DNA of 38,131 bases, from positions 1 through 38,131 of the IMG/VR virus record IMGVR_UViG_3300027749_000248; one strand, given 5' to 3'. Position numbers and translations under genes: made by a program. The stretch is from a virus. Below, piece after piece: positions 317-33,803 of the stretch. The notes beneath the pieces were generated by a model. It saw only the letters and a list, made by a program, of their open reading frames with translations. It was not told where the DNA came from and searched no databases. Position 1 is the first letter of the stretch. Each line of letters begins with the position of its first letter.

Positions 317-659
317 GGAACATTTGTTGAGTTTCTTCATGTCTTAGCATTAGAGCATTACAGAGGCGGTCATCCGGTACCTCGAGCTCCGTCCTGGTTT
401 TTATATGACGGCGGACTAATTATACAATGCTAACCATATAATCAGTCGTAAGGGTGTTACCCTTTCTTTTAACCTTATGTGTACAGCGGGGCCATAACCT
501 GTAATAAGTTTTGTAAAAGGTACATCTTATATTCATCCAAATGGGTAGGTGGTTATGTCGTTGCTACAGTTCAACAATTCCATCACTGTGATACATCTGT
601 CCAGTTATAGGGCGCATAGATAATACAGTTTGCGCGACACCTGCTGTAGTTATGCGTAC

Positions 660-704: not shown

Positions 705-1589
705 CTATGATTGGTCTGGTTTATTGAAATGCGTTGAAAGAGATTGGTCTACATAGTTATATGGTTCTTCACGTGGTGCAGCTCGTTTCAAATAACGATG
801 CGCAGGATCTATTTTATCGGTATGAGAGAGCATTGCACTGTGTGTTCCAACATTGTTAGAACTAGCCTTAAACATCTTGTCTTCAACAAAACTAACATAT
901 TGAACTTGCGGATTGTTTTCAATAAACTGATTAATGATATTACCTAAGAATTGAATACACTGAGAATAGGCTGCAGGATCAAATGGCATTTTCTGTTTGC
1001 CTGTACCATAGTAATGTTTCCAATCAGCTGTAAACAATCCTCCAGACTGCTGAGTATCATCTTTAAATAAACCCGGATTATCGTATTGAGGGAAGTCACT
1101 CCATAAACTACTAGGAACAATACCTAATGGTTCAGATACAGTTACAAAGTAGACTGGGTATCTTTTATCTTTTATGATTTGATTGTAGCTTTTATAAATG
1201 CCTCGGGCTGCATTAGCCCACGGTTTAGTTTTTCCACAAGGAACAAATGCTACCATTTTATATTCCGGTGGCACTTTGTGATGAACAATCTCTTGATGCC
1301 ATTTGGCAATTTCTGGATGTTTAAACAGAGCAAGAGTTTCACCCGGGGTATATGCAGTAAGAACTGGATCAAGTGTAGGGTTGCTTGCTAAACTGCGTTG
1401 CACTAGCCATTTGCGGAACTGAGGCCACATTTCTTTTGAAATGTATCTAGGTTGCCCTAATTGATCAATTTCAACTTGACTAAGATTAGCAAATGCCTGT
1501 TGTTTGTCTTCTTGACTAATGTCTGTTGGCGGTACTATGCTTTTAATAGATGGCTTTGCCGCTTCAACAATAAATTCTTTTGCTCTCAT
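705..1589 (-). CDS. DUF5591/ArcS-like protein with head-targeting-like N-terminus
   Basis: A 294-residue protein. Around residues 110-175 it has FVPCGKTKPW followed by VTVSEPLGIVPSSLW and a FPQYDNPG stretch. This order (PC-x-K-P, then S-PLG-VP, then P-YD) resembles the DUF5591 domain of archaeosine synthase/TGT-related proteins. I base this on motifs alone, and the function in a phage is unknown. The start MRAKEFIVEA resembles T4 capsid-targeting sequences, with an I-V-E cleavage-type site after residue 9. The first 19 coding bases are identical to those of the gene at 30318. A late-type octamer lies 20 bp upstream. Confidence 0.6.
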   Translation of the reverse strand: MRAKEFIVEAAKPSIKSIVPPTDISQEDKQQAFANLSQVEIDQLGQPRYISKEMWPQFRKWLVQRSLASNPTLDPVLTAYTPGETLALFKHPEIAKWHQEIVHHKVPPEYKMVAFVPCGKTKPWANAARGIYKSYNQIIKDKRYPVYFVTVSEPLGIVPSSLWSDFPQYDNPGLFKDDTQQSGGLFTADWKHYYGTGKQKMPFDPAAYSQCIQFLGNIINQFIENNPQVQYVSFVEDKMFKASSNNVGTHSAMLSHTDKIDPAHRYLKRAAPREEPYNYVDQSLSTHFNKPDQS

Positions 1590-1608
1590 TGTATATCCTC
1601 ACAAGTAT

Positions 1609-1616
1609 TATTTATT
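1609..1616 (-). promoter_or_regulatory. T4-late-like promoter octamer AATAAATA
   Basis: On the minus strand AATAAATA, one mismatch from the T4 late consensus TATAAATA, followed by 19 nt and the start codon at 1589. The interval contains GAGGAT as a ribosome binding site. It separates the tagged gene 705-1589 from the upstream operon. Confidence 0.55.
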
Positions 1617-1644
1617 CGTGTATATAGTTACAGCAGCGGATAAC

Positions 1645-2262
1645 TCATTTGGGCATCTGGGTGGTTTTAAGTTCTCGACTGCTGATGGCGAATACTCTAT
1701 GTTGGCTGTCTGCGTGTGTGGTCCAAACATACTTACCGTAGTGATCAACTTGGCTAGCATCATGTAGTTGATGTAGTTGCTCTTGTTTGAAGTCCGCATA
1801 GTATACTTTGAGTCCGCGTTGGAATGCTCTGTGCAGTTGCTTTAACCAGAACTTACGTCCTAGGGGGGTTTGTTCATTGTCTGCTACTACAGTAAAGTAA
1901 TCTTCTACGAGTTGGTCGAATAGTCTGCTGGCGAGATCACCTAGCTGGCTGCGATATTTCGGGTCTTGCCATACCCAGCGTTGCACTGCGTGGTCGCCGA
2001 GGGGGCGCAGGTTGTCACGTTCATATTCCATTAAGTATACTATGCGTTCGTCATCAGGTTGACCTTGGCTATGCACTGCCATGTATACGTAGTGTACACT
2101 GTTATCACCTTCATACAGAGTGATCTCTGGAGTTAGCTGTTCTATGGGTTCGCAGGTTCTTTTATACTTTAAAAACAGTTGATGGTTCTTATCAGGGTCT
2201 GCGGTTCTAGGTGTAACTGGTTCGATGATTTGACTCATCTCTGTGATTTCGTTGATTTTCAT
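1645..2262 (-). CDS. GNAT-like acetyltransferase fold protein, tagged N-terminus
   Basis: A 205-residue protein starting MKINEITEM, a short tag with an I-T-E cleavage-type site. The centre reads VQRWVWQDPKYRSQLGDLAS, then DYFTVVADNEQTPLGRKFW and a RAFQRGLKVYYADF strand. This resembles phage GNAT-like proteins with a position-of-substrate helix and a DxxQTxxG segment. The acetyl-CoA loop is not textbook, so catalytic activity is uncertain. Its start overlaps the stop of the upstream SGNH gene by 4 nt (ATGA), so the two are probably co-translated from the late promoter at 2996. Confidence 0.55.
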   Translation of the reverse strand: MKINEITEMSQIIEPVTPRTADPDKNHQLFLKYKRTCEPIEQLTPEITLYEGDNSVHYVYMAVHSQGQPDDERIVYLMEYERDNLRPLGDHAVQRWVWQDPKYRSQLGDLASRLFDQLVEDYFTVVADNEQTPLGRKFWLKQLHRAFQRGLKVYYADFKQEQLHQLHDASQVDHYGKYVWTTHADSQHRVFAISSRELKTTQMPK

Positions 2263-2990
2263 GTTAATTGTTCCGCAAAGTGTTGAGCGATATATTTTGT
2301 AGTGTGTCTTCCAGGATGCATTTGATCTCGAGCAAAGTCAGTAGCGTTGAACAAAGGGCAATTTTTAAATAGCTCTGCAGTAGCGTTGAACAAAGTTCCT
2401 TCTAGGTACCGTGTTCGATCAGTCCACAGTTGTTGGCTAATCTTGCGATGTATTAATGCAGAAACAGATGGGTTATTATTCCGTAACCATTCATTATAAT
2501 AATTAAGTTTATGATCCCAGGGTCCTATGCAACTGGCCATATTGCCATCAAATAAAATAGTCCTTTCCGGACTAGTCCAAAGCTGTATCACTGCATACGG
2601 ACATGGGTATGCAGATAAAATAGTAGAGTTATATGTAGCATGCTGGATAGAACTACCAGCAACACCCAGATTGATCACTGGGCGATTGATTAGCATCGAT
2701 AACTGGCTGCTAATCGTATGCTCGTCAGTTATACCTGTACCAAATGCGTTGGAACAACCGAATACAACAACTGAGTCTTCCCAATCAACTGTACTAAACT
2801 CTGCGGTTCGATATCCGTTAGAGTTAAGTGTGTATGTAACAGGATTGTGTCGATAATACCAATCATCAGGTTGGGTTTTTAAGTTCTTTTCAAAACAACG
2901 TTTTGAATCAGTGCTGCTAAAATGGTTGCTGTGTGCGTTTAATTCTACCGGTAAAAACTCGTTGTTTAGAATAGTATTAATGATATGCAT
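2259..2990 (-). CDS. SGNH/GDSL-type hydrolase
   Basis: A 243-residue protein. Block I is VVVFGCSNAFGTG (nucleophile Ser in G-C-S-N), followed by VINLGVAGSSI for the oxyanion Gly region, and DQMHPGRH near the C-terminus supplies the Asp/His pair. An upstream NSNGYRTAEF stretch is common in phage SGNH proteins. Such enzymes deacylate or esterify glycans or lipids; the substrate is unknown. A longer frame reaches 3056, but the late promoter octamer at 2996-3003 lies inside that extension. I therefore place the start at 2990, five nt after the octamer with no Shine-Dalgarno, suggesting a leaderless mRNA. Confidence 0.75.
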   Translation of the reverse strand: MHIINTILNNEFLPVELNAHSNHFSSTDSKRCFEKNLKTQPDDWYYRHNPVTYTLNSNGYRTAEFSTVDWEDSVVVFGCSNAFGTGITDEHTISSQLSMLINRPVINLGVAGSSIQHATYNSTILSAYPCPYAVIQLWTSPERTILFDGNMASCIGPWDHKLNYYNEWLRNNNPSVSALIHRKISQQLWTDRTRYLEGTLFNATAELFKNCPLFNATDFARDQMHPGRHTTKYIAQHFAEQLT

Positions 2991-2995
2991 GCAAA

Positions 2996-3003
2996 TATTT
3001 ATC
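2996..3003 (-). promoter_or_regulatory. T4-late-like promoter octamer GATAAATA, leaderless type
   Basis: GATAAATA overlaps the TGA stop of the upstream gene 3002-3214 and is followed by exactly 5 nt and then ATG at 2990. In T4 the octamer spans about -13 to -6, which would put +1 at the A of the start codon. Confidence 0.55.
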
Positions 3004-3214
3004 AGATGTCTCGCACGGGTACAACATACCAAGGTTGATCCATGTTGTAGCCGCATTCTGCATTATAGTCAACCCAGGTTCCGTTTTTACTACAGTGATC
3101 GTCATGTCTAGGCATGCGCCAGTCCTTGTGGCCACGATGTTCGAGCATTAGGCAGTACATCCATGCTTGATGGAAGTTTAGTTTGTCTGGGCTTACGGGT
3201 GCGTGATGTACCAT
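3002..3214 (-). CDS. DUF1566-like array member (most downstream)
   Basis: 70 residues: HQAWMYCLMLEHRGHKDWRMP in the first half and WYVVPVRDI at the C-terminus. This is the family pattern of aromatic-rich helix (AWxYCLxLxxxGHKDWRxP), a variable loop with Cys and Trp, then PVRD. The loop has extra cysteines not seen in neighbours. It is the last array gene before the late promoter of the SGNH gene. No Shine-Dalgarno other than AGAGA, contributed by the 3' codons of the preceding gene. Confidence 0.75.
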   Translation of the reverse strand: MVHHAPVSPDKLNFHQAWMYCLMLEHRGHKDWRMPRHDDHCSKNGTWVDYNAECGYNMDQPWYVVPVRDI

Positions 3215-3217
3215 ATA

Positions 3218-3469
3218 TCATTTCTCTCTTCTTACTGCTAGTGCAGGCCATTTAATTACGTTAGGGTGTGTGCTAACAAGGTATAGTTGTATGTTGGTCT
3301 CGTCATCTTGATCTATTTCAGACCAGACACCGGGTATGCCATATATCTTTGTTTCTAGTTGCGTAGGCATACGCCAATCTTTACGACCGGCATAGTCCAG
3401 GGTTATGCAGTACAGCCAGGCCTCACTATAGGTCATGCTGTGTTGAGTAACTAGGGCAAATTCAAGCAT
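3218..3469 (-). CDS. DUF1566-like array member
   Basis: 83 residues with EAWLYCITLDYAGRKDWRMPT at the centre. Unlike its siblings it ends ALAVRREK instead of PVRDI, so the C-terminus has diverged. The central 73 bp is 69/73 identical to the gene at 3917-4126, while the flanks differ, implying recent duplication or gene conversion. The start at 3469 overlaps the upstream gene's 3' end by 8 nt. Confidence 0.75.
   Translation of the reverse strand: MLEFALVTQHSMTYSEAWLYCITLDYAGRKDWRMPTQLETKIYGIPGVWSEIDQDDETNIQLYLVSTHPNVIKWPALAVRREK
3363..3435. repeat. 73-bp near-identical core repeat, copy 1
   Basis: Matches 4029-4101 at 69 of 73 positions; all four differences are transitions. It covers the AWLYCITLDYAG-KDWRMPT coding core only, and the sequence outside diverges sharply. 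Confidence 0.8.
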
Positions 3470-3695
3470 CGTTGTCTCTCACTGGATAGCATGAAAACGT
3501 TGCGGTTGGATAATCTAGTATGTATCTTTCATTTTCAACCACCCATACTTCAACTTCAGAAATTGTTTCAAAAATTGTTTCACTAGCAGTCGGCATACGC
3601 CAATCTTTATGGCCATCATAGTCTAGGGTCAAGCAATACATCCAAGCATCGTCCCACGTTGCTTTAGCATGCCGAGGTCCAAATTCAATTGACAT
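3462..3695 (-). CDS. DUF1566-like array member
   Basis: 77 residues: DDAWMYCLTLDYDGHKDWRMP, an acidic variable middle with VWVVENERY, then CYPVRDNDA. The PVRD motif is followed by three extra residues, which lets the next gene's ATG sit inside the AACGATGCT codons. It starts one base before the end of the upstream gene's stop codon region (3696). Confidence 0.75.
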   Translation of the reverse strand: MSIEFGPRHAKATWDDAWMYCLTLDYDGHKDWRMPTASETIFETISEVEVWVVENERYILDYPTATFSCYPVRDNDA

Positions 3696-3920
3696 TTATA
3701 TATCTCTCACTGGTATTACACATCGAACCAATCTTACTGTTTGCTGTTCAGCAATAAAGTTAGCATACCATACGTGCCCTTCAAAAAACAAGTCGCTCAT
3801 ATATTCCTGAAATGACGGTAATCGCCAGTCTTTATTGTTATCATAATCTAATGTTAACACATATAGATAGGCCTCGTCAAGTGAAAGTTCAGTTTCAATT
3901 TTAGGAGCTCTTTCGATCAT
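3696..3920 (-). CDS. DUF1566-like array member
   Basis: 74 residues starting MIERAPK, with DEAYLYVLTLDYDNNKDWRLP and the C-terminus IPVRDI. The frame is open to 3983. I prefer the start at 3920 because it forms the ATGA junction with the preceding gene and matches the MI-RAP starts of the siblings. The first Cys of the YC pair is replaced by Val, the only member with this change. Confidence 0.75.
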   Translation of the reverse strand: MIERAPKIETELSLDEAYLYVLTLDYDNNKDWRLPSFQEYMSDLFFEGHVWYANFIAEQQTVRLVRCVIPVRDI

Positions 3921-4126
3921 ACGTCTCTTATCGGTATTACGCCCATAGAAACTTGGTAGGTTATTCTTCGTTCTACATACCAACCTCTATGCGGTAAATC
4001 ATTATAGCGGTAAATATATTCTATACTTGTAGGCATACGCCAATCTTTATGACCAGCATAGTCCAGGGTTATGCAGTACAGCCAAGCCTCATTATAGGTC
4101 AAGAGATCCGATATTGGCCCTATCAT
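3917..4126 (-). CDS. DUF1566-like array member
   Basis: 69 residues: NEAWLYCITLDYAGHKDWRMP, a GWYVERR segment and the C-terminus IPIRDV. Both ends use ATGA overlaps (3917-3920 and 4123-4126), so it is translationally coupled on both sides. Its core DNA is nearly identical to that of the gene at 3218-3469. Confidence 0.75.
   Translation of the reverse strand: MIGPISDLLTYNEAWLYCITLDYAGHKDWRMPTSIEYIYRYNDLPHRGWYVERRITYQVSMGVIPIRDV
4029..4101. repeat. 73-bp near-identical core repeat, copy 2
   Basis: Partner of 3363-3435. Neighbouring array genes lying between the two copies are much more divergent, so exchange between non-adjacent copies is likely. Confidence 0.8.
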
Positions 4127-4350
4127 ACGTCTCTCACTGGCAGGGCGAACAACCGGCTTTTCGGGTGCATGTCAAACTCATCTAGCACAGGGTACCACAT
4201 GTCAAACCAACACTGCTCTTCCATGTGCATGTATTCACCAACTGTGGGTAATCGCCAATCATGCTTGTTATCGTGAGCTAAGGTCATGCAATACATCGTG
4301 GCCTCACTAAAGGTCAGTTGATGTTTAGTCATCGGGGCTTTTTCGATCAT
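4123..4350 (-). CDS. DUF1566-like array member
   Basis: 75 residues starting MIEKAPM, with SEATMYCMTLAHDNKHDWRLP, CWFDMWYPVLDEF and the C-terminus LPVRDV. The frame runs back to 4377, but the ATG at 4350 forms the ATGA junction with the upstream gene and aligns with the family start. GTGAGAGAC encoding the upstream V-R-D supplies the ribosome binding site. Confidence 0.75.
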   Translation of the reverse strand: MIEKAPMTKHQLTFSEATMYCMTLAHDNKHDWRLPTVGEYMHMEEQCWFDMWYPVLDEFDMHPKSRLFALPVRDV

Positions 4351-4565
4351 ACGTCTCTCACCGGACACACCGGACACACATTGCTTGCAAAAAATACTTC
4401 TTCATCTTCGTACCAAGATGCTACTGGAATATCCGGTGCTTGTGCATACTCGTGTTTAGTAGGCAATCGCCAATCCTTATAGCCTTTATGGTCTAGGGTT
4501 AAACAGTACAACCATGCCTCGTCATAGGAAAACGGGCAAGCCGGCCGCGGCGCACGATCAATCAT
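4347..4565 (-). CDS. DUF1566-like array member
   Basis: 72 residues: MIDRAPRPAC, DEAWLYCLTLDHKGYKDWRLP, ASWYEDEE and CPVCPVRDV. The start overlaps the end of the unrelated gene 4558-4818 by 8 nt. This junction lacks the VRD-encoded ribosome binding site because the upstream gene belongs to another family. Confidence 0.75.
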   Translation of the reverse strand: MIDRAPRPACPFSYDEAWLYCLTLDHKGYKDWRLPTKHEYAQAPDIPVASWYEDEEVFFASNVCPVCPVRDV

Positions 4566-4818
4566 TGTACACCCTAGTCGAATGTGTTATCAATAGCACA
4601 AAATACTTCTTTTCGTTATGCACTGTTATATGCGATCCCGAAAATAAAAACTCTACACCATACTTTTCTAATAGCCAATCTGGAAATATTTCTTTTAATG
4701 GTTCAACTGACAGGAGTTCATGCTTGGGCTCTTTGATAAATTCGACCCAAGCATTTTGCAACACAGTTAGCATTTGTCGATCAAATGACTCAGTGTCCTG
4801 CCATTTGATCACCCTCAT
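4558..4818 (-). CDS. Unknown small protein related to gene at 8668
   Basis: 86 residues. The C-terminal half, FPDWLLEKYGVEFLFSGSH then KKYFVLLITH, resembles FPNWLQREYGLKM and KRFMVFQIKH in the gene at 8668-8904. Less strongly it resembles ILNQAILEQHGV in the gene at 9139-9372. It is therefore a relative of the WF-x-L-x-W family placed inside the DUF1566 operon. The start overlaps the upstream stop by 4 nt (ATGA at 4815-4818). No function is known. Confidence 0.65.
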   Translation of the reverse strand: MRVIKWQDTESFDRQMLTVLQNAWVEFIKEPKHELLSVEPLKEIFPDWLLEKYGVEFLFSGSHITVHNEKKYFVLLITHSTRVYND

Positions 4819-5192
4819 AGTTTTAATGTTTCCCAGACTGCCAACTTGTCTAGCTGTTTATCAAAGCCAGGGTATACTGCACTTAATTCTTCTTTGAGGT
4901 TTTTGCTTTCTATTAATCCATCAAAGACTGCAACTGGTTCATAGCCGTGCTTGATCTTTTTGTTGATAAATCCAGCAACCATACCAACATTTCTAAAGAT
5001 ACCATCTACGTTATTCCAAGCAGGACGTTGATACCCTTGCCTAACCAGAGTGCGCAATTTGCCGTTGCGTCGGCCCCACAAAAACAGATAGTCGTAGATG
5101 CCGCCATACTTTGGGTCTGGCCTAAGCTCAATTACTGCCCACACGGTTTCAACTTTTCCAGTTGTCTTTAATCCTGCAAATGTAATTTTCAT
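4815..5192 (-). CDS. Unknown protein, possible WGR-like domain
   Basis: 125 residues. Residues about 17-50 read WAVIELRPDPKYGGIYDYLF then LWGRRNGKLRTL, which resembles the WGR signature (a strand, then WGR-x-G). WGR domains bind nucleic acid ends in PARP-type proteins, but similarity here is short and untested. The C-terminal half is Lys-rich with YEPVAVFDGLI. It is embedded in the array with ATGA junctions on both sides, and its ribosome binding site is GAGAGA from the V-R-D codons of gene 5189-5428. Confidence 0.6.
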   Translation of the reverse strand: MKITFAGLKTTGKVETVWAVIELRPDPKYGGIYDYLFLWGRRNGKLRTLVRQGYQRPAWNNVDGIFRNVGMVAGFINKKIKHGYEPVAVFDGLIESKNLKEELSAVYPGFDKQLDKLAVWETLKL

Positions 5193-5428
5193 ATATCTCT
5201 CACCGGTATTACCATATCAGGTCTATTAGTTTCGTAATCGTCATCATCGTAAGCATCCTCGTTGCACCATCCGACACCGAATGGTCGTGTGCTACTATAT
5301 ACATCACCGAACTCATCCCACGTAGGCATTCGCCAATCCTTGTGGTTATTGTATACCAATGTTAAACAATACAGCCATGCAAGGTCGTAGGTTAATGCAG
5401 TGTATGTTCGTTGGGCATGTTCAATCAT
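5189..5428 (-). CDS. DUF1566-like array member
   Basis: 79 residues starting MIEHAQR, with DLAWLYCLTLVYNNHKDWRMP, a very acidic loop (DAYDDDDYE) and IPVRDI. The ATG at 5428 is chosen because it overlaps the TGA of the upstream remnant (5425-5489) as ATGA. The longer frame to 5455 would enter the remnant. Confidence 0.75.
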   Translation of the reverse strand: MIEHAQRTYTALTYDLAWLYCLTLVYNNHKDWRMPTWDEFGDVYSSTRPFGVGWCNEDAYDDDDYETNRPDMVIPVRDI

Positions 5429-5489
5429 AAATCTCTCACTGGTATCACATACCATGCTCTACAGCTGTTGGTGCTATTTCAATATTCAT
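5425..5489 (-). pseudogene. Deleted DUF1566-like array remnant
   Basis: Only the two ends of an array gene remain. Positions 5489 down to about 5460 encode MNIEIAPTAV, a family N-terminus. In a shifted frame, GCATGG to the stop encodes AWYVIPVRDL followed by TGA, a perfect family C-terminus that still forms the ATGA junction with the next gene. The whole AWxYC...DWRMP core is gone. An in-frame reading from ATG gives only 14 codons before TGA. This is a footprint of gene loss in the array. Confidence 0.75.
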
Positions 5490-5698
5490 TTTATGTCCTT
5501 TACAGGTCTGCAGTAGTGCTTACGTTTAGTGATCTCAGCATCTTTGAACCAAGCCTCACCGTCGATATATTCGTAGAATGTCGGTAGTCGCCATCCTTTT
5601 CTGCCCTCATAAGAAAACCAAAAGCAATAAAATAATGCATCTTCGTAGGTCATCTTTTCAGTGGATCTTGGACCGTGAATAACTGTTTTAGCTGCCAT
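5486..5698 (-). CDS. DUF1566-like array member (first gene of operon)
   Basis: 70 residues: DALFYCFWFSYEGRKGWRLP, EAWFKDAE and the C-terminus RPVKDIK. It is divergent, with KGWRLP in place of KDWRLP and VKD in place of VRD. It is the first gene after the consensus promoter at 5731-5759. Its AAGGAC (K-D codons) serves as the ribosome binding site for the following MNIEIAP remnant. Confidence 0.75.
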   Translation of the reverse strand: MAAKTVIHGPRSTEKMTYEDALFYCFWFSYEGRKGWRLPTFYEYIDGEAWFKDAEITKRKHYCRPVKDIK

Positions 5699-5730: not shown

Positions 5731-5759
5731 ATTATACAATCAAGACCGATGCATGTCAA
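5731..5759 (-). promoter_or_regulatory. Perfect sigma70 consensus promoter for DUF1566 operon
   Basis: On the minus strand TTGACA (5759-5754), 17-nt spacer, TATAAT (5736-5731). It probably drives the operon from 5698 down to about 3002. The divergent late octamer at 5763-5770 abuts its -35 box. Confidence 0.8.
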
Positions 5760-5762
5760 CCA

Positions 5763-5770
5763 CATAAATA
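5763..5770 (+). promoter_or_regulatory. T4-late-like promoter octamer CATAAATA, leaderless type
   Basis: CATAAATA, then 5 nt, then ATG at 5776. The spacing is identical to that before the paralogous SGNH gene at 2990. Confidence 0.55.
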
Positions 5771-5775
5771 CAAAC

Positions 5776-6315
5776 ATGAACACACAAAATTTATTACCAT
5801 TTATGCCCGGCACAGTTGTTACTAACATAGATACTAGCGCATGGGAAGACTCAGTTGTTGTATTTGGAAACATTGATCAAGATGAATTAAGAAACTTTGA
5901 ATCCTTAGGTATACCGGTGATCGGCATTAGCTGCCCGGGTAGCTTTGAGTTCCAAATGCATAACAATTTAATACTTGCTGAATATTATACTACTCCGCTG
6001 GCAGTTGTCAATATTTGGGGAGACATGGATAATCTAACATATTACCACGACGCTGATTTAAAAGAAGATTGGGTACAGCATTTAACAGAGCGTAATACAG
6101 GTGGCCTATTAGACCGCTGGCTACGCGGAAGTTTTAATCGTAATCTACATAACTATTTTAATGCGCTTGCAGTTAAACAGGTTTGGTATCGTACCAAATA
6201 TTATAGCTGTTCAACTTTTGAAAGTGTGAGTGAAGTTATTAAATGTGACTTTGTTGAAGAATGGTTTGTAAATAAAGCAAGGGTAGAATTTGGGTCTCTA
6301 ACTAAAAACATCTAG
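5776..6315 (+). CDS. Degenerate SGNH-hydrolase-like protein
   Basis: 179 residues. SAWEDSVVVFGNIDQDELRN aligns with DWEDSVVVFGCSNAFGTG of the gene at 2259-2990, but the G-C-S-N nucleophile is replaced by G-N-I-D. The later IGISCPGSF keeps the shape of the second block, and the C-terminal D-x-x-HPG is absent, so it is probably not catalytic. The frame is open from 5749, but that start precedes the late octamer. The ATG at 5776 matches the leaderless arrangement of the paralogue. Confidence 0.7.
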   Translation: MNTQNLLPFMPGTVVTNIDTSAWEDSVVVFGNIDQDELRNFESLGIPVIGISCPGSFEFQMHNNLILAEYYTTPLAVVNIWGDMDNLTYYHDADLKEDWVQHLTERNTGGLLDRWLRGSFNRNLHNYFNALAVKQVWYRTKYYSCSTFESVSEVIKCDFVEEWFVNKARVEFGSLTKNI

Positions 6316-11856: not shown

Positions 11857-13158
11857 TTAAGGTTTAGGAAATGGTTGGAGAGTACCGTTTATGTTTTGGC
11901 CTGCAAGAAATTGTAAAGATTTAGGTGATTGCGTTTTTATATACGCAATAGTCTCTGGTCTTAGATAACCCAATATATACATCTGTTGCGGAGAGTGGTG
12001 TGCAAGTTTTAACTCAACTTTTGGATCAAGATGTTTAGGATCAACCAGTCTTAGCATCGATTCAAACCCTGTTCTACGACCTATTACGATATCTGCAAAC
12101 ACATCTTGTGCAACAGGATCTTGTGCATAATTAGAAAATAAATCCCTATCGTTCAAAAATGCAAGTTCCAGTTGGTCTTTCGTCGGGTGAGGAATTGTTT
12201 TAATAAAACTCGGTTTTGCAACAATTACAGCATCAATCTGTTCAGCAGTCGGGTTACTAATAAATTGCAGGAATTCAGGATGTGTTGCGAGATAATCATT
12301 TTGGAAAAGTGGATCCATGTTTTTCATATCTTCTGGTTTAATATTTTTAGTGTACGTTCTAAGTAAGTTATGAAAACTTCTGTCAGAAAAATCGTTATGT
12401 TGAGTTCTATCAAAGAAATGAAGTAATGCATATTCAATTTCTGGATCACGTTTACCAGTGTAAGCATGACGATTAATAGTTAGCTTGTCAATGATTGTAT
12501 CATTATATGTTTTTGTTTTTTGTTCTTCAGGTGGTTCTACTTCAACATTATCAATATTGCGATTGTTAAGTGCAGCACGAATAATTTCGTGTGCAGGTAC
12601 TCCAGTTTCTTCTAAGAATTGTTCTGCTGTTATTGGATCATCTGATGCAGTAAACAATTCAACACTGGTCGGATGATTTCTATAAAATGCAATTGCCCAC
12701 ATATCATCACCGTCACCGTCGCCTTCGTAGTTAAGGAAACAATAGATTAAAATTACACCTTTTCCAGTGTATTCTTCCCAATACTTGTGTTCTGCTTTAG
12801 TAGTACACCAGTCGCTGTGCCTACCAATATTAATACTGGCATTTTTGTTTAATGGCATAACCCCGGTAATGTTATTGCGCTCGAATACCGTTACAGCATC
12901 TTCTTCTCGTTTTACTAATTTCTTTTTCTGTGTTTTACTTTGTTCTTGCGATTTATCAAATACGTATCTTTGGAATTCATACCAACCTTTTTTACGCCAT
13001 GCATCGATATTGCGCTCTGCACCTTGTACCTGGTTGCGATCAACAAGTTGTCTATACTTGCTAATCATATCTTTTACCTGTTCCGGTCTTCCATATTTTG
13101 AAAAATCAATTTGGGCTTCTTTATACCCGTCAATTAAAAATAATTCTCTTAAAAACAT
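11857..13158 (-). CDS. Unknown large protein with helical repeats, late-expressed
   Basis: 433 residues starting MFLRELFLIDGYK, weakly similar to the tagged N-termini. Residues about 105-150 hold INIGRHSDWCTTKAEH and WEEYTGKGVILIYCFLN, a W-C-T...Y...G-x-L-Y pattern seen in phage proteins of unknown role. The C-terminal half has helical repeats, for example ISNPTAEQIDAVIVAKPSF and IPHPTKDQLELAFL, resembling DUF4116 repeats. It is a lone minus-strand gene with a late-type promoter. It could be a packaged effector; this is inference. Confidence 0.65.
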   Translation of the reverse strand: MFLRELFLIDGYKEAQIDFSKYGRPEQVKDMISKYRQLVDRNQVQGAERNIDAWRKKGWYEFQRYVFDKSQEQSKTQKKKLVKREEDAVTVFERNNITGVMPLNKNASINIGRHSDWCTTKAEHKYWEEYTGKGVILIYCFLNYEGDGDGDDMWAIAFYRNHPTSVELFTASDDPITAEQFLEETGVPAHEIIRAALNNRNIDNVEVEPPEEQKTKTYNDTIIDKLTINRHAYTGKRDPEIEYALLHFFDRTQHNDFSDRSFHNLLRTYTKNIKPEDMKNMDPLFQNDYLATHPEFLQFISNPTAEQIDAVIVAKPSFIKTIPHPTKDQLELAFLNDRDLFSNYAQDPVAQDVFADIVIGRRTGFESMLRLVDPKHLDPKVELKLAHHSPQQMYILGYLRPETIAYIKTQSPKSLQFLAGQNINGTLQPFPKP

Positions 13159-23648: not shown

Positions 23649-24005
23649 ATGAGAGCAAATGAATTTATTAACGAAGATGCAATTGGTACTTCACCAAAGC
23701 GTCCTCGTAGAGAAGGAAGTCGACATAGCCGCGGACACGAGCCGCAGGCAAGATATACAGAAGTAGCTGTTAATGAAGAAGATGTTACCGAAGAGAAAAA
23801 AAGCACAACTGCAATTTGTAAAAGTTCTAAAACAAATGACCAGCTAGGTGCAAGCATGTTATCAAAATGCAAATCACTTGGTTTGCGTGCAAGAGAAGGT
23901 AACAAATCTCATTTAGTAAACGGTAAGCGTATCAAAGTTGGTGGTAAAAAGATCAAAGGAAAAGTACATGGCGGACCATTGCCAGACTGGGGTGAACATA
24001 AATGA
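23649..24005 (+). CDS. Basic tagged protein, candidate internal head protein
   Basis: 118 residues starting MRANEFINED, closely like the tag at 1589 and 30318, with an I-N-E cleavage-type site after residue 9. The mature part is basic (KRPRREGSRHSRGHE) and ends NGKRIKVGGKKIKGKVHGG, suggesting DNA contact inside the head. An exact late promoter lies upstream, and ATGA couples it to the transglycosylase. The role as an internal protein is inferred. Confidence 0.7.
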   Translation: MRANEFINEDAIGTSPKRPRREGSRHSRGHEPQARYTEVAVNEEDVTEEKKSTTAICKSSKTNDQLGASMLSKCKSLGLRAREGNKSHLVNGKRIKVGGKKIKGKVHGGPLPDWGEHK

Positions 24006-24817
24006 GATTTGACGAATTTAAACAATTAAACGAAGACGCTGGATTTTTCCTAGTAGTTCCAAAAGACCGCAGTTGTCCAGAAGTTGCAGACCTTCAAAAA
24101 GTACTAAAAGCGTTTGGTCACAGTTTAGGTCCGCCTGACGTCGACGGTGTTTTGGGTCGATATACTACAGCAGCACTTAAAGGCGCACAAGCAGAGATTG
24201 GGTTACCAGAGACCGGTGTGCCCGATGAAAAGACTATCGAGCTGTTAAACCTAGCATTAAGAGAAGTACCAGAAATCGCAACTAAGCTAACAAAAAGTAC
24301 AGTAGCTGATGTTAGATCAGCAAGTGGTGCAGACAATATCGATGTTAGCACTATACAAGATCCGGACTTTAATAAAAAGCTTGACAACATTGCAAATCAG
24401 TTAGGTGTTAACGCTAGCGACCTGTTAGCGATTATGAAACAAGAGTCAGGTGTTAATCCGCATGCACGTAATAAACAAGGCGGCGCAACTGGGTTAATTC
24501 AATTCATGCCTAACACTGCTAGACGATTAGGAACAACCACAGATGACTTAATAAAAATGACAGCAGTTCAACAGTTAGACTATGTTTATAAATATTTCAA
24601 AATGGTTGGCATTAGACCCGGAATGAAGCTAGGTGACTTATACATGGCAGTGTTCATGCCGAAATATGTAGGACACGGCGATACAACTGTATTAGGTGCA
24701 TCAGGTGCAAGTGGTTTCTCAGGTAAAGTGTATGCACAGAACAAAGGTTTAGATAGAAACAAGGACGGCACTATTACTATTGCCGATGTAAAAAATTCCG
24801 TAGCCCGCTTCGCATAA
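24002..24817 (+). CDS. Lytic transglycosylase with PG-binding domain and tagged N-terminus
   Basis: 271 residues. Tag MRFDEFKQLNED with an L-N-E site; a peptidoglycan-binding domain (about 26-88; VADLQKVLKAFG, then DGVLGRYTTAALKGAQ); an SLT transglycosylase domain with catalytic E148 in KQESGVNPHARN followed by GGATGLIQFMP. A calcium-type loop DRNKDGTITIADV ends it. It cleaves peptidoglycan. The tag suggests head packaging and delivery with DNA rather than use as an endolysin; a baseplate location is the alternative. Confidence 0.85.
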   Translation: MRFDEFKQLNEDAGFFLVVPKDRSCPEVADLQKVLKAFGHSLGPPDVDGVLGRYTTAALKGAQAEIGLPETGVPDEKTIELLNLALREVPEIATKLTKSTVADVRSASGADNIDVSTIQDPDFNKKLDNIANQLGVNASDLLAIMKQESGVNPHARNKQGGATGLIQFMPNTARRLGTTTDDLIKMTAVQQLDYVYKYFKMVGIRPGMKLGDLYMAVFMPKYVGHGDTTVLGASGASGFSGKVYAQNKGLDRNKDGTITIADVKNSVARFA

Positions 24818-26370: not shown

Positions 26371-27144
26371 ATGAAAACACTATTAGCATTATTATTACTT
26401 TTACCTAGTCTTGTACTAGCAAACTCTATCGATCAGCAGTGTCCGCAATTTGTAGTACGTGGTGCGCCTGTTAGTCCACTAGCAGACAATGCTACACAGT
26501 ATATATGTAAACAAAATTACGCAATCCATTATAGATTTGATACAAAAACTGCAGAGTATGTTGTAGAACATGTTACTAAAGAATCAGTGATCGGGCCTGC
26601 ACAAAGGGAAGACGACTTCCGTCCAGACCCTGCTATTGCAAAATCAAATCAATCCGTGTTATCGGACTATGCCGGACATCCATACGACCGCGGCCATTTA
26701 GCACCGGCCGGTGATAATAAACAAACTAAAGAAATAATGAGCGAAAGTTTCTTTTTATCTAACATGGTTCCGCAAACTCCAAATAACAACAGAGGCATCT
26801 GGAAACAACTAGAAACAGCAGTGCGTAATTTAGTTGTGGAAGGCAAAGACCTGTATGTTGTCAGTGGAACACATTATCAACCTGGATACTTAACTATCGG
26901 AAACAATGTCGGTGTACCTACCCATTTATGGAAAGTTGTTGTCGATAGAGGAAGCCAAACAGGTATTGCATTTATATTCCCAAACAAAGGTTTACCGGTT
27001 AAAGACTTACCTAAGTATGCAACATCGATTGCTGAAGTAGAAAAACTTACAGGTATAAACTTTATGCCCGAATTAACTCTAGAACAGCAGCTACAAGTCG
27101 AACAGGAATTTCATGTTATTGATTGGTTAGGATTAACTATATGA
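26371..27144 (+). CDS. Secreted DNA/RNA non-specific endonuclease
   Basis: 257 residues. The signal peptide MKTLLALLLLLPSLVLA is removed near Ala17. The NUC motif D106-R107-G108-H109 (YDRGHLAPAGDN) and FLSNMVPQTPNNN with N140 and E148 match the beta-beta-alpha metal nucleases such as Serratia nuclease. It would act in the periplasm or outside the cell, for example degrading incoming DNA of rival phages or host DNA at lysis. Late-type promoter upstream. Confidence 0.88.
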   Translation: MKTLLALLLLLPSLVLANSIDQQCPQFVVRGAPVSPLADNATQYICKQNYAIHYRFDTKTAEYVVEHVTKESVIGPAQREDDFRPDPAIAKSNQSVLSDYAGHPYDRGHLAPAGDNKQTKEIMSESFFLSNMVPQTPNNNRGIWKQLETAVRNLVVEGKDLYVVSGTHYQPGYLTIGNNVGVPTHLWKVVVDRGSQTGIAFIFPNKGLPVKDLPKYATSIAEVEKLTGINFMPELTLEQQLQVEQEFHVIDWLGLTI

Positions 27145-27374
27145 AAATAGAAGAACTTACTGAATCTCACAAAGATTTAGATAGATATACAGCGTATGCA
27201 AAAACACATTACAGTGAAACAGATCCAACTACTGCAGTATTACAATTATTAGTACGCAGTATTGAACACGGTAAATCAGTCGATGCTGAACAAACTGCAG
27301 CTATTAGGGAATTACAAAAAGAAGTAGAAGCGTTAAAAGGAGCTAACGCTTCTACCATAGCCCCTACTGTTTGA
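27141..27374 (+). CDS. Small tagged protein
   Basis: 77 residues starting MKIEELTESHKDL, with an L-T-E site after residue 8. The mature part is helical (AVLQLLVRSIEHGKSVDAEQ, then IRELQKEVEALKG), a short coiled coil. The ATG overlaps the nuclease stop as ATGA. Its 3' end overlaps the converging ALA synthase gene by 11 bp. Confidence 0.6.
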   Translation: MKIEELTESHKDLDRYTAYAKTHYSETDPTTAVLQLLVRSIEHGKSVDAEQTAAIRELQKEVEALKGANASTIAPTV

Positions 27375-30317: not shown

Positions 30318-30593
30318 ATGAGAGCAAAAGAATTTACAATCAATGTACCCATTAACATTAAGATAAATGGTGATGGCGATCCTGAGATTGATGTAGCAGG
30401 CAACGACGATAGTGATCCAGATGAAAATCCAATCTTTGTTTCACCATTACAGCAAGAGTTAGAACTTAAGAAAGCTGATGCTGGTAAAGACAGTGCAGTT
30501 ATTGATAAAATAACAGCACCAGATGATATCGGCGAAGAACCCAACAACGAACTAAATCGGTTGAAACAATTATTGCAGCGGCATGCACAATGA
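30318..30593 (+). CDS. Acidic protein with MRAKEF start
   Basis: 91 residues starting MRAKEFTINV. The first 19 coding bases are identical to those of gene 705-1589, although no (L/I)-x-E site follows. The rest is acidic (DGDPEIDVAGNDDSDPDENP) with FVSPLQQELELKKADAGK and a C-terminal NELNRLKQLLQRH helix. Likely virion-associated. ATGA overlap with the zincin gene. Confidence 0.65.
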   Translation: MRAKEFTINVPINIKINGDGDPEIDVAGNDDSDPDENPIFVSPLQQELELKKADAGKDSAVIDKITAPDDIGEEPNNELNRLKQLLQRHAQ

Positions 30594-30991
30594 AAGTCAA
30601 AGAAATATTAACAGAAGGGCTAGCACACGACGAGGCTCAACTTATTATAGAAAAGTTTATCAAGTTTGCTGCTGATAACTTAAACCTGCAAGACTTGCCA
30701 GACATTAACTTAGTTACCGGGTCGAATCGTTCTGTAGAACAAAGTTCATTTGGTGGTTATGGTAATCGTAGCATTAACATATCAGTATCAAATAGACATG
30801 TCATGGATGTATGCAGAACATTAGCACACGAACTAGTTCATTACAGACAAGATCTAAATAATGAATTAACTAACGACAGCGGCCGTGACGGTAGTCCACA
30901 CGAAAACGAAGCTAATGCTCAAGCGGCTGTTATTATGCGCAAATGGGGTAAAATGCACCCTAACTTATTTGGCAAGCAGGCTATCGGCTAA
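30590..30991 (+). CDS. Tagged zincin-type metalloprotease
   Basis: 133 residues. Tag MKVKEILTEG with L-T-E after residue 9, then a domain with H80-E81-L-V-H84 (TLAHELVHYRQD) and a later Glu in SPHENEANAQAAVIM as probable third zinc ligand. This is the HExxH zincin arrangement in a very small protein. It might be packaged and act on host proteins after injection, or process virion parts. Normal ATGA coupling. Confidence 0.75.
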   Translation: MKVKEILTEGLAHDEAQLIIEKFIKFAADNLNLQDLPDINLVTGSNRSVEQSSFGGYGNRSINISVSNRHVMDVCRTLAHELVHYRQDLNNELTNDSGRDGSPHENEANAQAAVIMRKWGKMHPNLFGKQAIG

Positions 30992-32644: not shown

Positions 32645-33352
32645 ATGCGATTTCTTGAATTATCAATACCTGCAATACCTTACAATGATACCCTTAATCC
32701 GTTATTATGGGAAGATGATCACTTAAAAACTGAAATACGATATAAATTAATGTTTATCGCCAAACATTTTGCACAGTTTTTAAATGTTTCAAATCTTAAC
32801 TTAGAAGATATTACAATTAGCGGAAGTAATGCAAGCTTTGGGTATTCAGATTATTCAGACATTGATTTGCACCTAGTTGTTAAGATGCCGCCGGATAATC
32901 CAGACCTTGCAGAATTATATAATGCTAAAAAGAACCAATACAACTTTAAATATGATTTAAGTGTCAAAGGCATTGCTGTAGAATTATATGTACAGGACGG
33001 TAAACAGCCGCATCAGTCTGCAGGTATATATAGTATATTAAATGACACCTGGGTAATCAAACCCAAACATCAAACACCAGTAGTCAAAGATGCCGAAGTT
33101 AAAAGCAAAGCGCGTAATTATGCAAGTAAAATTAATCAAGCATTGCAATCATCAGATTTAAAATCTGCACAGGAAACATTAGATGATCTATCACGTTTAC
33201 GCAAAGCCGGATTAGAACAAGGTGGCGAATTTAGTATCGAAAACCTAGCATTTAAATTATTAAGATCACGTGGCAAGATTGACAAATTAAGAAAACACGT
33301 TGACACACTACAAAGCAAAGAGCTTAGTCTCGGAGAAAAACATGAAGATTAG
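32645..33352 (+). CDS. Nucleotidyltransferase-fold protein
   Basis: 235 residues. G60-S61 then SDYSD72-I-D74-LHLVV is the polymerase-beta-type nucleotidyltransferase motif G-S-x(10)-D-x-D. VKGIAVELYVQD may carry the third acid. The last 90 residues form helices. The N-terminus MRFLELSIP resembles the tags, with a possible L-W-E site after residue 23. By analogy to the T4 Alt enzyme it could be packaged and modify host targets; this is inferred. Confidence 0.75.
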   Translation: MRFLELSIPAIPYNDTLNPLLWEDDHLKTEIRYKLMFIAKHFAQFLNVSNLNLEDITISGSNASFGYSDYSDIDLHLVVKMPPDNPDLAELYNAKKNQYNFKYDLSVKGIAVELYVQDGKQPHQSAGIYSILNDTWVIKPKHQTPVVKDAEVKSKARNYASKINQALQSSDLKSAQETLDDLSRLRKAGLEQGGEFSIENLAFKLLRSRGKIDKLRKHVDTLQSKELSLGEKHED

Positions 33353-33803
33353 AGATATCGTTGAGAACTGGCAGGTAGCAAGCTCAGATCAAAACGGGAT
33401 TAAAGCAATAGACCCAAAAACAAAAGCTGAATTAAGTTTACCAGCTGATATGCAACAATCATTACAATCAGATCCTTCGAACCCTAACAAGTTTACGCTA
33501 AACCCACAAGCAATTGCAAGTACAGATAACCCTGCACAGCAACAACACACTGGACCTGCAGTTGGAGCAGAGATCGAAATACCCATGGCAACTACTGAAA
33601 ACTCGGAAGAGGAAGAAGAAGCTGATTTAATTCCACACAATCATCCAGTCGGAGGTGACGGCGGAGATGATTTTGTTTTAGATGTTACTAATGGTAGAGA
33701 TCCAGATAGTTTCGAAAATCATGCTAAACATGCATACCAAGCAGTGAGTCACAGTGCATTACCAGAAGGGCTAGCTGCAATTATTAAGTTGTCAGGTCTA
33801 TGA
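33342..33803 (+). CDS. Acidic tagged protein
   Basis: 153 residues starting MKIRDIVENWQ, with an I-V-E site after residue 8. The mature part is Gln/Asn/Pro-rich then acidic (NSEEEEEADLIPHNH, GGDGGDDFVLD). Upstream codons are open, but MKIRDIVE at 33342, preceded by GGAGAAAA, is the clear start. Overlaps the nucleotidyltransferase gene by 11 nt. No catalytic motif. Confidence 0.65.
   Translation: MKIRDIVENWQVASSDQNGIKAIDPKTKAELSLPADMQQSLQSDPSNPNKFTLNPQAIASTDNPAQQQHTGPAVGAEIEIPMATTENSEEEEEADLIPHNHPVGGDGGDDFVLDVTNGRDPDSFENHAKHAYQAVSHSALPEGLAAIIKLSGL

Follow-up and report, generated by a model that had tools for sequence, protein, structure and literature searches.

Results

Tagged Genes in the Window

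The stretch of DNA analyzed here, hereafter the window, is a viral fragment of 38 kb (38,131 nucleotides) from IMG/VR, which we ascribe to a large phage of freshwater type. Two of its minus-strand genes, 705-1589 and 1645-2262, open with the same short N-terminal peptide, as an earlier note on this DNA had stated, and related starts are found on several plus-strand genes of the fragment (Table 1).

Table 1. Tagged genes, tag DNA, and candidate late promoters of the window (an arrow marks the predicted cut)
Feature	Position	Strand	Description
Tagged gene 1	705-1589	minus	294 aa, starts MRAKEFIVEAAKPS; tag MRAKEFIVE↓A, then DUF5591/archaeosine-synthase (ArcS) domain, residues ~75-170
Tag DNA of gene 1	1563-1589	minus	codons 1-9, predicted cut after E9
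Late-promoter octamer	1609-1616	minus	AATAAATA, 27 nt upstream of 705-1589; identical in G001
Tagged gene 2	1645-2262	minus	205 aa, starts MKINEITEMSQ; tag MKINEITE↓M, then phrog_1349-type protein
Tag DNA of gene 2	2239-2262	minus	codons 1-8, predicted cut after E8
Untagged gene	2259-2990	minus	4-nt overlap with the beginning of gene 2
Weak late-octamer candidate	2996-3003	minus	GATAAATA
Tagged gene MRANEFINE↓D	23649-24005	plus	TATAAATA 28 nt upstream
Tagged gene MRFDEFKQLNE↓D	24002-24817	plus	starts MRFDEFKQLNED; peptidoglycan-binding and SLT transglycosylase
Tagged gene MKIEELTE↓S	27141-27374	plus	
Tagged gene MRAKEFTINVP	30318-30593	plus	lacks an L/I-x-E site around residue 9 (cf. T4 IPI, MKTFKEFTSTTT)
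Tagged gene MKVKEILTE↓G	30590-30991	plus	metallopeptidase-like
Tagged gene MKIRDIVE↓N	33342-33803	plus	

As a loosely drawn pattern, M[KR]xx[ED][FILVM]...[EDN], the tag is carried by 8 of the 19 window proteins that start with M[K/R], well beyond the 0.4 expected from internal sequence (p 2e-9), and by 20 of 98 such proteins (1.6 expected on the same basis; p 2e-16) in G001, a 372-kb sister genome syntenic with the window. This pattern was composed after the N-termini had been inspected, and an independent test was therefore made on another collection, IMG/VR, which was scanned with the back-translation of a stricter peptide, M(K/R)AxEFIxEA, and, as a control, with the same letters after E and F had been swapped. 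The peptide was found in at least 119 stretches and the scrambled control in 5. Among the 119 stretches listed there are 123 copies of the tag, almost every one of which opens a reading frame, and the 118 tagged frames of at least 60 aa among these matches fall into 32 clusters that have no mutual BLAST similarity once the first 12 residues are removed. Since so short an N-terminus is common to 32 unrelated protein clusters, we read it as a sorting signal and not as a family trait. The tagged clusters include an ART-PolyVal protein (PF18760, 1.6e-28; contig G029), one with a ParB-like domain, and one with an SLT domain; by eye, others resemble GH19, metallopeptidase, and DNA-binding proteins, and the gene for one tagged protein adjoins the capsid gene in contig G036. 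The literature covered, which excluded most subscription journals and preprints, yielded no paper describing the tag in environmental phages.

A second N-terminal flavor, approximately M(F/I/L)LREL(F/Y), occurs in window gene 11857-13158 (minus), which has AATAAATA 39 nt upstream, and in G001 at 88833-89069, 1399-3168, and 315205-316524. It resembles the MELITELFDE of T4 Alt, and one such gene lies beside head genes. Several small proteins encoded between 8424 and 13501 (plus) have in common a WFxLRW-type C-terminus (TWFILRWG, NWFLLRWE, WFVLRWG).

The Two Minus-Strand Proteins

The label DUF5591-like, given earlier to the product of 705-1589, is confirmed by a true Pfam match to PF17884 (27.8 bits, cut-off 26). 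The protein also matches two ArcS profiles (NF053620, 1.9e-7; NF040592, 1.4e-6) at scores that do not reach their equivalog cut-offs (29.8 bits where 600 are required, and 27.2 where 440 are). A comparison with solved structures gave no convincing match, the best being a cytochrome P450 at E 0.74, and the model of the protein, built from four sequences with a mean pLDDT of 49, was left out of the fold search. In viral sequence its relatives are three close loci, L001, L002, and L003, and in all three orthologues the tag is kept; there are none among 50,697 phage records, and none was confirmed in the genome_contigs collection. No match to TGT or QueC was obtained in G001, which is possibly incomplete, or in the fragments G002 and G003. 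Because neither was found in G001, a phage-encoded 7-deazaguanine pathway is unlikely, and we have dropped DNA modification of that kind as a context for the ArcS domain. Directly 3′ of 705-1589, at 495-640 (minus), lies a Polynucleobacter-1 RNA (Rfam RF01718; 61 bits, gathering threshold 37), with a sigma-70 promoter close to consensus ahead of it (TTGACA at 688-683, TATAGT at 665-660, spacer 17). The stretch is nearly identical in the sister phage, and the RNA also occurs, in another context, in tag-bearing contig G029.

The label GNAT-like, applied earlier to 1645-2262, fares less well. No GNAT profile in Pfam or NCBIfam matches this protein, and its PHROG matches are phrog_1349 and phrog_3307, both function-unassigned families. 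MYST acetyltransferases head the list of structural matches to a low-confidence model (pLDDT 60), with Z ~6 over residues 17-120, and Foldseek for 1645-2262 returned nothing under E 0.1. We suspect an acetyltransferase-like fold; the MYST resemblance would be compatible with a GNAT fold. The 50,697 phage records hold no relative of 1645-2262, and a single viral contig, G029, does. There the relative begins MKLRELFNNEVLDE and its gene adjoins that of the tagged ADP-ribosyltransferase. Both proteins continue with MSxxIxPV; the phrog_1349 domain, that is, sits behind two different N-termini, each ending at E before this common stretch.

The untagged gene 2259-2990 is probably cotranscribed with 1645-2262. 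By eye its product resembles an SGNH-type hydrolase, and it has an EDSVVVFG stretch in common with the otherwise different product of 5749-6315 (plus). From 3002 to 5698 (minus) the window holds an array of small DUF1566-like genes with the motif KDWRMPT, of which G001 has dozens of paralogues.

Late Octamers and Gene Placement

Octamers of the late-promoter type cluster upstream of genes, mostly at a distance of 20-39 nt, and point with the genes far more often than against them (sense to antisense, 9:1 in the window and 59:17 in G001), and the nine promoter-positioned copies in the window all lie 20-39 nt from a start. The earlier note had placed both minus-strand genes downstream of such an octamer. 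For 705-1589 this is convincing, and the gene is supported as being of late type, on a strand of early type. For 1645-2262 a late promoter is doubtful, since the weak candidate GATAAATA is 741 nt upstream of it and stands just 13 nt before the untagged 2259-2990. The octamer is absent at the L002 and L003 orthologues of 705-1589, the former of which belongs to a series of tagged genes. Octamers precede 6 of 20 tagged genes in G001 as against 53 of 484 others (p 0.02), and the corresponding difference in the window is not significant; because the association with the tagged class is modest, we do not take octamers as proof. The placement of tagged genes on the strand opposite the structural block is the layout to be expected, since in T4 the genes ipI, ipII, ipIII, and alt are likewise found away from the structural block and on the minus (early) strand, with the head block on the plus strand.

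Resemblance to the T4 Capsid-Targeting Sequence

Direct comparison shows that T4 IPII and IPIII start with MKTYQEFIAE↓A and T4 Alt with MELITELFDE↓D, and a core alignment sets the EFIAE↓A of T4 against EFIVE↓A in 705-1589. An IPIII N-terminus of 10 residues suffices to direct foreign proteins into the head of T4; residues 4 and 7 matter chiefly for targeting, residues 8 and 10 for processing, and the T4 prohead protease gp21 cleaves after L/I-x-E (PMC9026906). T4-type capsid-targeting sequences are N-terminal peptides of ~7-19 residues that close with this motif, and both minus-strand tags do so (FIVE↓A in 705-1589, ITE↓M in 1645-2262); some window tags, such as that of 30318, lack a clear one. 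Short as the motif is, [I/L]-x-E falls at residues 8-11 of 52 G001 proteins where 20 are expected (p 2e-9).

The window, a fragment too short to be expected to hold them, has neither a protease nor a capsid gene. G001 encodes both a gp21-type protease (Peptidase_S77, 5e-26) and a Gp23 homologue (2e-80), together with homologues of gp20, gp17, and the late sigma factor gp55. A prohead protease is present in G001 and in five other tag-bearing contigs; Peptidase_S77 was matched in 6 of 50 tag-bearing records, most of which are short fragments, and in 4 of the 7 longer than 180 kb. T4 gp23 sheds a 65-residue propeptide at FLTE↓A, and in all six gp23-like capsid proteins from tag-bearing contigs an L-x-E↓S/T is conserved in alignment with that site (6/6). 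An I/V-x-E↓S also lies near the N-terminus of 5 of 6 proteases from such contigs.

Discussion

The short N-terminus common to 705-1589, 1645-2262, and many unrelated phage proteins is likely (we would put the probability at about 0.8) to be a capsid-targeting propeptide of the T4 type, by which the tagged proteins are docked in the head, cut, and ejected into the host. Because the tag so closely matches the one that T4 uses for loading its head and then clips off, the proteins that bear it are probably carried in the particle and injected. In the course of events that we infer, 705-1589 and probably 1645-2262 would be made late in infection, by late transcription of an early-type strand; the 8-9 residues at their N-termini would dock them into the prohead core; a gp21-type protease would then cleave behind the tag glutamate; and the freed proteins would remain in the DNA-filled head until they are ejected with the genome into the next host. 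Early in that infection the ArcS-type cargo of 705-1589 could modify a host nucleoside or tRNA, or counter a host barrier. The model we favor, an enzyme that is injected and acts on a nucleoside or tRNA of the host, is conjecture.

The tag differs from the T4 propeptide in its consensus, in the breadth of its cargo, and in the phages concerned, and these are what is new. With less assurance, though still on the favorable side of even, we propose that across a clade of large environmental T4-type phages one short N-terminal tag acts as a general cargo label, one that predicts from sequence alone a large and open-ended set of head-packaged, injected effectors, most of them without an assigned function. 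The predicted set would include an ADP-ribosyltransferase, acetyltransferases, metallopeptidases, cell-wall enzymes, and the ArcS-domain protein.

The earlier note took the tag to be moved or kept as a module of DNA, and the bases on which that view was founded are as described: 705-1589 and 30318 have their first 19 coding bases (MRAKEF) in common, and in 23649 a single one of these is changed. We nevertheless judge it very unlikely that the N-terminus is copied between genes as DNA, by recombination or gene conversion, and for the tag alone the idea is largely refuted. Codon usage by itself would give the same codons with a probability of ~8%. In the 123 tag copies among the matches listed, synonymous sites vary freely (GCA/GCT/GCC/GCG, GAA/GAG, TTT/TTC, ATA/ATT/ATC); tags of different genes on one contig agree at 21-25 of 30 bases, as random pairs do (23.2), and the DNA upstream of them, matching at 3-11 of 30 bases against 8.9, is unrelated. 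Between the window and G001 the tags agree with their own orthologues at 29/30, 24/30, and 30/30 bases and with the tags of other genes at 20-24/30. Because synonymous sites vary, tags on one contig resemble each other no more than random ones do, and each follows its own orthologue, the tag is kept as a peptide; with synonymous sites free and the tags staying with their own genes in the sister phage, the 19 common bases are no sign of DNA movement. A larger unit may have moved. Across window positions ~1-1634, which take in the late promoter, the tagged gene, the RNA, and the beginning of a DUF1566-like gene as one cassette, identity to G001 is 92% and breaks off immediately upstream of the octamer, compared with 66-84% in most syntenic stretches, and fourfold sites in this region are 77% identical against a median of ~48% elsewhere. 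Because 705-1589, its promoter, and its downstream DNA stand out in this way, whole-gene cassettes may be exchanged; a recent exchange is possible.

Two further readings accept a conserved peptide. The tag might be an amphipathic helix that directs proteins to a membrane or to another part of the virion, such as the tail or baseplate, and the cell-wall enzymes among the tagged proteins (SLT, GH19-like) are potential tail parts. We think this unlikely, since the glutamate that the tags conserve, with I/L two positions ahead of it, matches the site of the head protease, found also at the capsid protein boundary and, as I/V-x-E, near most protease N-termini, and the Alt-like ADP-ribosyltransferase is cargo that suits a head. 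Least probable of all, to our minds, is that the N-terminus has no common function and is merely inherited with each protein family. Gene-specific flavors of the tag are indeed kept in orthologues, but such inheritance would not put one tag on the 32 unrelated clusters among the matches listed, and tag and protein are separable: the cyanophage homologues of the 30590 metallopeptidase have another tag (MNYKQFLRE↓S, in B23) or none (in S-SRM01), the phage homologues listed for the SLT protein 24002 align only from residue 15 or later, and the phrog_1349 domain of 1645-2262 follows either of two N-termini that stop at the same glutamate.

If the tag is a packaging signal, injected phage proteins could be flagged straight from the sequence of uncultured viruses, and the proteins so flagged would be the likeliest first-contact weapons against host defenses. 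The same reading predicts a cut after the tag glutamate in dozens of proteins of unassigned function.

Four known systems invite comparison. The product of 705-1589 matches the domain of archaeosine synthase ArcS (NF053620, NF040592, and PF17884), an enzyme that in Thermococcus kodakarensis transfers lysine onto preQ0 (PMC11298593), but it has ~300 aa and a single ArcS region, scores far under the equivalog cut-offs, and comes from a phage in whose sister genome TGT and QueC were not found. The ART-PolyVal family belongs with the polyvalent proteins, which are predicted injected effectors (PMC5512222); the tagged G029 protein is a member of that family, whereas the tagged proteins in general are mostly single small domains and not multidomain giants. 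T4 Alt, a head-packaged ADP-ribosyltransferase, offers a packaged enzyme with a very short propeptide, encoded on the strand opposite the structural genes, and a related phage here has a tagged ADP-ribosyltransferase; phmmer found no Alt homologue in the window or the sister genomes, and the cargo of 705-1589 differs in being ArcS-like. The closest likeness is to the capsid-targeting sequence of the T4 internal proteins IPI, IPII, and IPIII. Both systems have an N-terminal tag of ~10 residues with M-K/R, an E-F core, and an L/I-x-E cut site, set before unrelated mature proteins whose genes lie on an early-type strand outside the structural block, where late promoters are expected. The consensus found here, M(K/R)(A/I/V)x(E/D)(F/I/L)(I/L)xE, is one residue shorter than MKTYQEFIAE, and it is carried by several genes per genome and by many more cargo families, which comprise enzymes and not just small basic proteins.
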